From positions 1-23,434 of the IMG/VR virus record IMGVR_UViG_3300024432_000537: a DNA stretch of 23,434 nucleotides. The stretch is one strand, 5' to 3'. The position numbers and the translations under genes are program-made. The notes under the pieces were generated by a model that did no database searches, was not told where the DNA came from, and saw only the letters and a list, made by a program, of their open reading frames with translations. Positions 14,423 through 19,653 of this stretch are shown in pieces. The DNA is from a virus. The first letter of the stretch is position 1. Every line of letters begins with the position of its first letter.

Positions 14423-14686
14423 ATGCAAGATCATACGATTGTAAAAAATGAGCAAGAGTTGATGCTTCGTGAATTCGTCGAAGAAGATTCTCCGGTGGAG
14501 TTGCTGAAAAGATTGCAACGGATGCATAGTGAAGCTATCCAAGAACCCGGGACGGTTTCCGTTTGTCAACGAATCGTCAATCAGAACGAACCGTGTCCTT
14601 GTGGTAGCGGCAAGAAGTTCAAGTTGTGTTGTAGATCAAAAGTGAACAAAGGAGCATTTGAAATTGAAAGCAGAACAAAGAAATGA
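14423..14686 (+). CDS. SEC-C motif protein, 87 aa
   Basis: Residues 55-70 carry the SEC-C zinc motif NEPCPCGSGKKFKLCC with four Cys (58, 60, 69, 70), the same element found at the end of SecA and in many small proteins. The first 50 residues are helical and acidic with no other recognisable domain. SEC-C binds zinc and often mediates protein contacts. GAAAGGAG lies about 12 bases before the ATG, and the stop overlaps the next start (ATGA at 14683). A stand-alone SEC-C protein in a phage cassette may act as an adaptor; this is inference. Confidence 0.85.
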   Translation: MQDHTIVKNEQELMLREFVEEDSPVELLKRLQRMHSEAIQEPGTVSVCQRIVNQNEPCPCGSGKKFKLCCRSKVNKGAFEIESRTKK

Positions 14687-16834: not shown

Positions 16835-17456
16835 TCAAGCATATCAGAATCCGCATCCGTTTCATTCTCCGGAATGGTACATGGCAACGTTTCAATGTCT
16901 CTTAGAGTGCCACCTAAAAAATTTCGCCGAAATAAAAAAGCGGTGGTGGAATCGGATCGATAGCGTTCTTGAAATCGGTTGCGGAACATACCGTTTCTAT
17001 CCGACCGCGTTCGCAAAAAAGAAATATACCGGCTGCGATATAGATCCCGCCGTGATCGCGTATTGTCAAAATCATTATACGGCTCAATTTTTGCATCATC
17101 AATGGAAGGTCCGGACCCTGCATAGTTTTCCGGATGAATCATACGATCTCGTTTTAGCGAATTCGGTGATCGATCACGCCGAGGATCCGGATCAATTCAT
17201 CAATGATTGTATCCGCGTCGCGAAACGATTTGCGTACATCGTTTCATATCGCGGTTACTTCATCGGATTGGTTGATCACAAACAGGAAAAGGGCGGCGAT
17301 GGATTTTTCTATAATGATATTTCCGCTCCGCGAATAGGTGAACTACTTGAAAATCGTTCGGACGTTTTACGGTTCGATATTCTTCCGGTACCTACCGGAC
17401 GACCGGGGGTCGAAATTCAATTTGAAACCGTAATCAAGATTGAAAAGAATGCCTGA
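16827..17456 (+). CDS. Class I SAM-dependent methyltransferase, 209 aa
   Basis: Motif I is SVLEIGCGTYRFYP at residues 46-59, the acidic ribose ligand is in YTGCDIDP (Asp71/Asp73), and ESYDLVLANSVIDHAEDPDQF is the motif IV and post region of a Methyltransf_11-like enzyme. The C-terminal part has GYFIGLVDHKQEKGGDGFFYND, a less common insertion. GGGGGAAA about 9 bases upstream serves as ribosome site. It overlaps both the ATP-grasp gene and the first mini-glycosyltransferase-like ORF (ATG at 17449). Confidence 0.85.
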   Translation: MPDQAYQNPHPFHSPEWYMATFQCLLECHLKNFAEIKKRWWNRIDSVLEIGCGTYRFYPTAFAKKKYTGCDIDPAVIAYCQNHYTAQFLHHQWKVRTLHSFPDESYDLVLANSVIDHAEDPDQFINDCIRVAKRFAYIVSYRGYFIGLVDHKQEKGGDGFFYNDISAPRIGELLENRSDVLRFDILPVPTGRPGVEIQFETVIKIEKNA

Positions 17457-17793
17457 GAAAAAACAAAAACCGATTATTCTCTGGACCTGCGACGTCGAAG
17501 GATGGGCGTATCATAACCGATTTTTACGTCTCTCGAAGAATCTTCCGGATTATGATCATCGATTGTATTTCTTCGGCGATCCGAAACTTTCGTATATTGA
17601 AAGAATCAATCTTGTGCTTTCCGCCGATGTCATAGTCTGTCAGGGCGTCAAGGCAATACGGATTGCAAGGATGAACGGTCCCGATCCGGACCGTAATCGA
17701 TATGCGAATATCGTCGGACGGCTTGACTCGATGCGAGTAGATTACAACGGAGAGTATTACGATATATGGACCGGCGAAGGAATTGAAAAATGA
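17449..17793 (+). CDS. Mini GT-B N-domain-like protein 1, 114 aa
   Basis: The N-terminal 60 residues have the same pattern as its three downstream neighbours: ILWTCDVEGWAYHNR, then LSKNLPDYDHRLYFF and SADVIVCQG, the beginning of a GT-B glycosyltransferase (beta-1, Gly/Trp loop, helix, 'LPxYxH' turn, 'ADVIV' strand). It continues with GRLDSMRVDYNGEYYDIW and then stops, so the nucleotide-sugar-binding C-terminal domain is absent. An in-frame TTG at 17440 would add three residues. It overlaps the gene before by eight bases and the gene after by ATGA, so it looks like an intended short protein and not random decay. Function unknown. Confidence 0.7.
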   Translation: MPEKKQKPIILWTCDVEGWAYHNRFLRLSKNLPDYDHRLYFFGDPKLSYIERINLVLSADVIVCQGVKAIRIARMNGPDPDRNRYANIVGRLDSMRVDYNGEYYDIWTGEGIEK

Positions 17794-18062
17794 GAATCTT
17801 ATGGCTTGCCGATAATCGTTCGTGGGCGTTCGCGTCAATCGTTCGGCAGATCGCGAAGACGTTACCGCAATATGAACATCAAGCGATATTTATGGTCGAA
17901 GACGCGAAAGAGTATGGATTCATAGAGGGTTTGGCACTTGGAACATTACAAGCCGACGTGATCGTCGCAATGTATATCCGCTATCCGGAAGCGTTGCCGG
18001 TCGAAACGAGAGCGAAGACCATTTTATTTCTTTCAGGATTGAGACCGTTTTATGGAGAATAA
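17790..18062 (+). CDS. Mini GT-B N-domain-like protein 2, 90 aa
   Basis: Paralogous to the proteins at 17449 and 18205: MRILWLADNRSWAF, then IAKTLPQYEHQAIFM and LQADVIVAMYIRYPEALP. Only the first Rossmann-like half of a GT-B enzyme is present; the ORF ends at TAA 18060-18062 after LRPFYGE. The start overlaps the previous stop (ATGA), and its last 11 bases overlap the start of the RiPP-like peptide gene. The Trp-Ala pair and the ADVIV strand are kept. No active-site residues can be assigned. Confidence 0.68.
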   Translation: MRILWLADNRSWAFASIVRQIAKTLPQYEHQAIFMVEDAKEYGFIEGLALGTLQADVIVAMYIRYPEALPVETRAKTILFLSGLRPFYGE

Positions 18063-18204
18063 AAATTCAAAAACAAAGAAAAAAGTTTACGAAAAACCGA
18101 CTCTTGTCAAAAGCAAAGAAATGACATTTCCGATGGACATAATCGCGAAATTCAATGGCGGACGATTTTGCGTTCAATGTTCCGGTTGTCACGGTTGTCG
18201 ATAG
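18052..18204 (+). CDS. Cys-rich 50-residue peptide, candidate RiPP precursor
   Basis: The short ORF overlaps the mini-protein 2 gene and ends TAG directly before the ATG of mini-protein 3 (no spacer). Its first half is Lys-rich and has VYEKPTLVKSKEMTFP at residues 12-27; YxxPxL is the leader motif recognised by the RRE domain in lasso-type RiPP systems. The last 12 residues are FCVQCSGCHGCR, with Cys at 40, 43, 46 and 49 in exact CX2CX2CX2C spacing after a GG at 36-37, a common leader-core border. The overlap with flanking genes supports translation. Alternatives: a metal-binding (4Fe-4S or zinc) mini-protein. No radical SAM or RRE protein is seen in this window. Confidence 0.6.
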   Translation: MENKNSKTKKKVYEKPTLVKSKEMTFPMDIIAKFNGGRFCVQCSGCHGCR

Positions 18205-18507
18205 ATGGAGAAACTGATCATAGCGTGGATCGTTGACGTCCCGGGTTGGGCGTATGATAATCGAGCGAAACGAATCGAACGTGCCTTGCCGGATTATCAT
18301 CACGTTCGTTTTTTCAATATAGCTGCGACGATAGCATTCAACGGAAAAGCGTTTATGATGTGGATCGTCGATCAGGCCGACGTAATCGTTTGCCCCGATC
18401 CGCGTCTCTTGAAATTCTTTACGGACGAAATGAGACCGAAAATTGTTCAAAACCTGAACGCGATCAAGATATTTGAAAAGGACAAAACAGATGGCAGCAA
18501 TAGTTAA
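18205..18507 (+). CDS. Mini GT-B N-domain-like protein 3, 100 aa
   Basis: Starts at the base after the peptide stop. It has IIAWIVDVPGWAYDNR, then RIERALPDYHHVRFF and QADVIVCPDPRLL, closely parallel to mini-protein 1. It then has LNAIKIF and a polar end DKTDGSNS before TAA at 18505. The frame stays open after this stop all the way into the full glycosyltransferase gene, so a readthrough product is conceivable but not supported by any motif. As in the other mini-proteins the donor-binding domain is missing. Confidence 0.68.
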   Translation: MEKLIIAWIVDVPGWAYDNRAKRIERALPDYHHVRFFNIAATIAFNGKAFMMWIVDQADVIVCPDPRLLKFFTDEMRPKIVQNLNAIKIFEKDKTDGSNS

Positions 18508-18568: not shown

Positions 18569-18691
18569 ATGTTGCGTGCATTGATTTTCCCTATCAAAAT
18601 ATATGGTTGGTTCTCTACAAAGTGGGCGAAAATTCGTCACGCAACGCCGAGTCATGTCGTCATAAGGATAGAGATCGTACAAGAAAAATGA
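18569..18691 (+). CDS. Very short GT N-terminus-like protein, 40 aa
   Basis: The ATG at 18569 has a perfect AAGAGGAG 8 bases upstream, and the TGA overlaps the next start (ATGA at 18688). The sequence ALIFPIKIYGWFSTKWAKI followed by HATPSHVVIRI parallels the 'IL..D..GWA...A..I...LPxYxH' start of the mini-proteins, with the W-to-P spacing one shorter. So it may be a fourth, even shorter copy. An upstream in-frame ATG at 18491 (with AAAAGGA 9 bases before it) would make 66 residues with a Val/Thr-rich start; I prefer 18569. Homology of such a short ORF is tentative. Confidence 0.45.
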   Translation: MLRALIFPIKIYGWFSTKWAKIRHATPSHVVIRIEIVQEK

Positions 18692-19653
18692 ACAATAAAA
18701 ACCAAGTGATGCTCTTGTCAGTCGAGAACACGAAATCGTGGTCGTGGGGAATCGTCATAGATCGATTGGAAGAACATCTGCCGAATTATGAATTTACACG
18801 AATCGTTCGTGATCAAATGATCTGTCCGAGCCCGAAATGTCGTCATACTCTTATGCGTCAAGTCGATCTCGGATTATGCTATCATTTCGATCTAACGTTA
18901 TTACAGAACTGCGATACGATACGGTTGATGCCATACGCCGGAAATTGTCTCGCGAGAATTGGAGGTCTTGATATGTCGAACCCGGATACAGACAGATATG
19001 GCGAAGATTTGAAACGCGTCGGAGCGGTGATCGCCACGAATGATCAACTCGGAGAGATCGCGAAGAAATTCAATCCGATCGTTGAAGTCGTTCCGAACGG
19101 TGTCGAACTCGATAAATTTGTCCCGCCCGATCCGTGTCCGGATTTCAGTCGCAAGATATTCCGTGTCGGTTTCGCCGGAAATATCTGGGGCGGCGGTGCG
19201 GATTACAAAGGTTGGGTCTTCTACGTTCAAGCCTGTGCATATATGGCGGCTGAAATCGAGCAAATTCATCTTCTGCACGGCTCAAATCAGATTCCGCACG
19301 AAGATATGCCAAAAAAATTCTATCACGAAATTGACGCCTTGATTCTGCCGTCTCGCGGCGAAGGATGCTCGAACGTGGTCTCTGAGGCCCTTGCCTGCGG
19401 TGTTGCGGTCTTGACCACGAAGGTCGGGTTTCACGGTGAAAAATTGACGGACGGAGAAAATTGCTTGTTCATCGAACGCGACGCCGATATGATAGCGGAG
19501 ACGATCCGGCGTCTGATTGCCGACCGCGAGTTGAGAATCCGGTTGTCAATAAACGGACGGAAATTCGCCGAAAAGTATCATGACGTCCGGAATGTCGCGG
19601 CGATCTACGATAAGGTCTTCAAGACGATAATTGAAAATACGACGAAAGGGTAA
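18688..19653 (+). CDS. GT4-type glycosyltransferase (GT-B fold), 321 aa
   Basis: A complete GT-B enzyme. The N-terminal half has VMLLSVENTKSWSW, EEHLPNYEFTRIV and GAVIATNDQL. The linker is VEVVPNGVELDKF at residues 132-144, the classical GT4 phrase. The donor domain has FRVGFAGNIWGGGADYKGW, then LPSRGEGCSNVVSEALACG around 221-239 with the E-x7-E motif (Glu225, Glu233), and ENCLFIERDADMIAETIRRL. It should transfer a nucleotide-activated sugar. Its N-terminal domain is the same type as those of the upstream mini-proteins. ATG 18688 is preferred over the in-frame TTG at 18607. It is the last gene of the cassette. Confidence 0.92.
   Translation: MNNKNQVMLLSVENTKSWSWGIVIDRLEEHLPNYEFTRIVRDQMICPSPKCRHTLMRQVDLGLCYHFDLTLLQNCDTIRLMPYAGNCLARIGGLDMSNPDTDRYGEDLKRVGAVIATNDQLGEIAKKFNPIVEVVPNGVELDKFVPPDPCPDFSRKIFRVGFAGNIWGGGADYKGWVFYVQACAYMAAEIEQIHLLHGSNQIPHEDMPKKFYHEIDALILPSRGEGCSNVVSEALACGVAVLTTKVGFHGEKLTDGENCLFIERDADMIAETIRRLIADRELRIRLSINGRKFAEKYHDVRNVAAIYDKVFKTIIENTTKG

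Follow-up and report, generated by a model that had tools for sequence, protein, structure and literature searches.

Orphan RiPP-type precursor genes in tailed phages and their homologues in a cellular radical SAM/PqqD operon

Dozens of unrelated phages carry orphan precursor genes of an apparently undescribed RiPP family that extends across bacteria and archaea. In cells, the precursor is encoded behind a radical SAM/SPASM enzyme and a PqqD-type RRE; in viruses, it is found alone. This orphan pattern suggests that phages borrow or jam a peptide-making pathway of their hosts. We consider it reasonably probable that RiPP biosynthesis is split here between virus and host, with many unrelated tailed-phage lineages carrying, and maintaining under selection, only the substrate gene of a host radical SAM pathway and using or jamming the host enzymes. 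If this is true, phages parasitize or counter a host pathway in a way that is widespread and had not been seen before.

The peptide gene and its family

The window, i.e., the whole stretch of DNA analyzed, corresponds to a virus record of 23,434 bp; its genes for terminase, portal, head, and tape-measure proteins show that it derives from a tailed phage. The ORF at 18052–18204 (+) encodes 50 aa, MENKNSKTKKKVYEKPTLVKSKEMTFPMDIIAKFNGGRFCVQCSGCHGCR, and is read as an orphan RiPP-type precursor gene, with no maturase in the record. The earlier note had placed this ORF of 50 codons correctly. It begins 11 nt inside the preceding small GT-like ORF (17790–18062, +; no Pfam hit), and its stop codon abuts the ATG of the following one (18205–18507, +; no PHROG hit), both being of interest as context only. 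The motifs described previously, YEKPTL (residues 13–18), GG (36–37), and CX2CX2CX2C (40–49), are all present, and the pattern goes well past what chance would give. The leader contains Y-E-K-P (residues 13–16; 18088–18099, +), which corresponds to the YxxP of RRE-read leaders, and a second element, M-T-F-P (residues 24–27; 18121–18132, +), which follows the MxFP consensus of the family alignment, where F is nearly invariant. G-G-R-F (residues 36–39; 18157–18168, +) is a subtype element, and the presumed core, CVQCSGCHGCR (residues 40–50; 18169–18201, +), matches the family core CxQCS(S/G)CHGCR. No family matching the peptide was found in NCBIfam or PHROGs.

Relatives identified in other phages by seed-and-tblastn keep FNGGRFCVQCS(G/S)CHGC(R/K) and the YxxP leader. 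Between the window and its relative L152, pS is 0.93 and pN 0.11, so that synonymous sites are near saturation and the protein is conserved; in closer, unsaturated pairs from the closest phages, dN/dS is 0.06–0.09. Judged by these substitution patterns, ORF 18052–18204 is a genuine gene on which strong purifying selection acts. Two doubts raised by the earlier note, that Cys-keeping homologues might be lacking and that codon statistics might reveal no purifying selection, are answered by the relatives and by the dN/dS of the closer pairs, respectively.

The wider family was collected by scanning viral and genome collections for CxxCxGCHGC and CxQCxxCHGC and then reading every frame. Viruses contributed 53 distinct peptides, from 66 contigs, and cells about 40. 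Their layout is fixed, consisting of a YxxP leader, 24–28 residues, and a C-terminal CxQCS(S/G)CHGCR. All family members have this core. The scan patterns themselves fix C, Q, and CHGC in part, and the conservation of these positions across the wide set therefore does not count as independent evidence; S44, R50, the YxxP leader, its spacing, and the operon are independent of the patterns. YxxP occurs in 52 of the 53 distinct viral peptides (ORFs chosen by the C-terminal motif only) and in 36 of 41 cellular ORFs chosen by the C-terminal motif, the background rate being 4.7% per 32 aa, and in the viral peptides it is nearly always 24–28 residues ahead of the first core Cys. In the phage copies, core and leader are equally well conserved. 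YxxP is a known recognition sequence of RREs, those of PqqD type included (PMC12710340). A longer motif, YxxPxL, had been proposed for the leader of the window peptide; its YxxP part is conserved in the family, and its L is not.

The cellular operon

In bacteria and archaea, 27 loci encode the same peptide within a conserved operon, in the order radical SAM/SPASM enzyme, PqqD-type RRE, and precursor. Neighbor clustering and HMM searches place the radical SAM gene at about -850 nt and the PqqD gene at about -210 nt, on the same strand and in fixed order, in 26 loci, and L245 is the 27th. The operon proteins match Pfam Radical_SAM (7e-21), SPASM (1.5e-9), and PqqD (3e-9). Operon-bearing taxa include Desulfobacterota, Chloroflexota, Actinomycetota, Bacteroidales, Methanoperedens, Thermoplasmatota, and others. 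Because the peptide belongs to a radical SAM/SPASM-PqqD operon in these 27 loci, we read its family as a RiPP precursor family, and not as a lasso family. Its members are short ribosomal peptides with an N-terminal leader and a C-terminal core, and the recognition motif conserved in the leader is accompanied by a PqqD-type RRE beside the cellular homologues. The proposal that the phage ORF is a candidate RiPP precursor is thus strongly supported by evidence from outside the window, namely by homologues encoded directly after the RRE and the radical SAM/SPASM enzyme; the earlier reading was right in kind and wrong in pathway.

Genes commonly found downstream in the operon encode a terpene-cyclase-like alpha/alpha toroid protein (squalene-cyclase fold, confirmed at the level of fold class only), AsnB, a GT4 glycosyltransferase, and large proteins, some of which end in a metallo-beta-lactamase domain. 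In three bacterial operons (L107, L145, L217) a DNA methylase (N6_N4_Mtase) follows the precursor directly and is itself followed by a protein of ~900–1100 aa, with a metallo-beta-lactamase domain at the end in those checked. A PADLOC scan of the operon proteins gave no specific defense match, the hits being to a type II MTase in some loci and, weakly and at superfamily level only, to viperin. No curated RiPP system of NCBIfam fits the cellular maturase; membership in the best-matching one, the ACGX system of TIGR04340, was rejected at 196 bits, far below the cut-off of 400. The operons are rare, being present in 2 of 395 and 2 of 247 sampled genomes, counts that include the seed genomes. One Thermoplasmatota MAG (G030) has two complete copies, L157 and L214, with nearly identical precursors.

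Orphan copies and their capture from hosts

No cognate radical SAM, RRE, or toroid protein is encoded in the flanking DNA covered for the 66 viral contigs with the 53 peptides. The radical SAM profile had no match in 43 whole virus records (control genomes, E 1e-157 to 1e-179), nor had the RRE profile in 40 (control genomes, E 1e-30 to 1e-39); the whole records searched include some of 39–185 kb, and most viral records, the window included, are fragments. The radical SAM/PqqD operon was present at 27 of 38 cellular loci versus 0 of 20 viral contigs (Fisher p 8e-8), as counted before 44 further viral contigs turned up. A cognate modifying enzyme is encoded alongside the 27 cellular homologues and alongside the peptide gene of neither the window nor any other viral record. 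The statement that radical SAM, RRE, and protease genes are not visible in the window was correct, and the same rule applies to all viral copies. Cultured phages and plasmids, searched with several family members, contained no relative and gave chance matches only.

The phages that carry the peptide have near-zero similarity to each other. Next to the viral copies there are often genes for portal, terminase, and head morphogenesis proteins, which belong to several unrelated families, and the 70 neighbors include portal families of several types as well as terminases; the reliance of IMG/VR on hallmark genes may inflate this structural-gene bias for short contigs. By position and size, the peptide gene lies between terminase and portal in L001, L004, L005, and L006, between head genes in L152, and in the window within a glycosyltransferase cassette. 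The L152 contig (L246–L247) is a phage-like contig of 39.6 kb in a Phycisphaerae MAG, and carries an ASCH-like protein resembling that of window ORF 647–1051.

The peptide of virus L056 agrees with L186, the precursor of a Bacteroidales operon, at 38 of 38 residues; the DNA is 96.4% identical over 111 bp, inside the ORF only, and the flanks are unrelated. On the peptide tree, which is built from few alignment columns, the labels change between virus and operon at least 17 times, 4–5 of these changes being forced by starred (well-supported) branches. Viral copies interleave with operon copies and fall among several operon subtypes, from which, by their position on the tree, they descend. Operonic counterparts of the window subtype, GGRFCVQC, occur in L108, L157, L214, and L245 (Methanoperedens/Halobacteriota and Thermoplasmatota), so that the nearest operonic subtypes of the window peptide are archaeal; the GGRF element is also common to other phages. 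Both these archaeal subtypes and the Phycisphaerae MAG of L152 point to the host of the window phage in an indirect way only. A pairing of phage host and operon is suggested by the peptides of the L056/L186 pair only.

Orphan copies are also found in about seven small-genome CPR/DPANN MAGs (L112, L137, L144, L154, L163, L187, L198). None of the seven has a cognate radical SAM, and no RRE was found in the five searched (L112, L144, L154, L187, L198), whose genomes are incomplete. These copies are not simply explained by a model in which the host acts in trans. An ABC exporter gene lies directly after the precursor in L112 and adjoins it on the other strand in L163.

Explanations of the phage peptide and known systems

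The explanation that we prefer, and to which we give somewhat better than even chances, is that the peptide is the precursor of an apparently undescribed radical SAM/PqqD RiPP family, that tailed phages captured its gene many times from hosts without taking the maturation enzymes, and that it supplies the host pathway with an extra or substitute substrate. Late in the infection of an operon-bearing host, the YxxP leader of the phage peptide would dock on the host RRE, and the Cys core would be presented to the radical SAM enzyme of the host. In this way, the phage would provide the host pathway with an extra or substitute substrate (or a competitor), and may gain either from the product or from competition. 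Docking, maturation, and the benefit to the phage are steps that we infer; the retention of YxxP in 52 of 53 orphans at a spacing that is nearly always 24–28 aa counts for this explanation.

The foremost alternative, possible but clearly less probable, is that of a competitive decoy, in which the host RRE and radical SAM enzyme are tied up by the phage peptide during infection, so that the host RiPP is starved or misdirected. Such a decoy would serve either to disarm a product harmful to the phage or to shield the phage in the manner of a captured antitoxin. A decoy would leave the same orphan pattern and the same leader conservation, and agrees with the near-identity of L056 to the host precursor L186 and with the presence of large unknown proteins in host operons and of a DNA methylase in some of these operons. 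However, the leader would mainly suffice for a decoy, yet the core is equally conserved; a place among late structural genes is unusual for counter-defense, and the defense-model matches of the operon proteins are limited to the DNA methylase and superfamily-level viperin. Since phages conserve the core no less than the leader, the sequences favor real maturation over a decoy that uses the leader alone.

An unmodified metal-binding (Zn or Fe-S) mini-protein of the phage head/packaging region, having only a common origin with the operon precursor, is improbable. The four Cys and the His in CX2CX2CHGC form a compatible pattern, portal, terminase, and head genes are neighbors, and orphans without maturase are found in CPR/DPANN chromosomes too. 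Such a protein would nevertheless have no reason to keep YxxP at fixed spacing in the orphans, the phages sharing the peptide have unrelated portals and terminases, and the near-identity of L056 to the operon precursor L186 is limited to the gene. It is very improbable that the phage genome encodes a maturase in a part missing from the recovered fragments; the window and many records are fragments, but no cognate radical SAM or RRE was found in the 40–43 whole records, those of 39–185 kb included, and the three genes are contiguous in cells.

Around the peptide ORF, the window encodes AsnB, ATP-grasp, methyltransferase, and glycosyltransferase proteins, and modification by the first three kinds of enzymes, giving a lasso- or graspetide-like phage RiPP, might be envisaged. 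AsnB is a clear Asn_synthase (1.7e-79) and the ATP-grasp protein a weak, RimK-like one, both in a same-strand cassette. The window AsnB scores above the TIGR01536 cut-off and reaches 174 bits on the lasso-cyclase model, for which the cut-off is 525 (the operon AsnB of L173 reaches 115 bits); its identity to an operon AsnB is only 30%, and AsnB is absent from the flanking DNA covered for every other viral relative. There is no Asp/Glu after residue 29, i.e., in the last 21 residues, and hence no isopeptide acceptor at core position 7–9, as a lasso peptide would need. The match to Pfam DUF5972 over residues 10–20 is below threshold (16 bits, gathering score 22.6). The lasso reading and the link to the window AsnB, ATP-grasp, and methyltransferases, both put forward in the earlier note, are accordingly abandoned; of the homologue features that it had proposed to check, the four Cys and YxxP are kept, and the window AsnB is not found beside other viral relatives. 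Modification by these enzymes, already a weak reading given that peptide-carrying relatives keep none of the genes, is therefore highly improbable, and the cassette, rich in glycosyltransferases, is probably better read as one of glycan modification. Four tandem ORFs in it (17449–17793, 17790–18062, 18205–18507, and 18607–19653) have a motif like that of the GT4 N-terminal half (W..D..GW.Y/A...RI...LP.Y.H), and only 18607–19653 continues into a full glycosyltransferase C-terminal domain. Another small ORF of the cassette, 14423–14686, has a C-terminal SEC-C zinc motif (PCPCGSGKKFKLCC). Finally, a spurious ORF, to which the short length and a ribosome-binding site that is weak by inspection could point, has a negligible probability and was already refuted by the saturation of synonymous change with the protein conserved and by the 53 versions of the same peptide.

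The literature searched holds no account of the peptide family or its core motif, and no report of phage-encoded RiPP precursors or of phages with the precursor alone. Host RiPPs have been correlated with phages, and the parts of that account consulted do not report phage-encoded precursors (PMC11118758). The orphan precursors hint that this RiPP matters in phage-host conflict. With them, it becomes possible to ask by experiment whether a host peptide pathway is fed, stolen, or blocked by phages, and the subtypes allow a phage peptide to be matched with the RRE and the enzyme of a host.

Among known systems, the cellular homologues resemble the radical SAM/SPASM and PqqD pathways (PQQ, mycofactocin, sactipeptide, ranthipeptide) in having the enzyme, the RRE, and a short precursor in one operon. 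They differ in the CxQCS(S/G)CHGCR core and in operon content (terpene-cyclase-fold protein, AsnB, GT4), which match no RiPP precursor of NCBIfam or Pfam, and the viral members differ in being without the enzymes. The radical SAM/SPASM protein of the ACGX system, TIGR04340, is the nearest to the cellular maturase in NCBIfam, yet far below its cut-off. The YxxP leader motif is shared with lasso peptides, to which the sub-threshold DUF5972 match of the window peptide also points, whereas here there is a Cys core instead, with no lasso cyclase, leader protease, or Asp/Glu acceptor. Phages are known to capture mimics of host genes, such as the pseudo-ToxI of phage phiTE and phage auxiliary genes. 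There, too, phages retain a small gene of host origin that works through host machinery; the captured gene in the present case would be a RiPP substrate.
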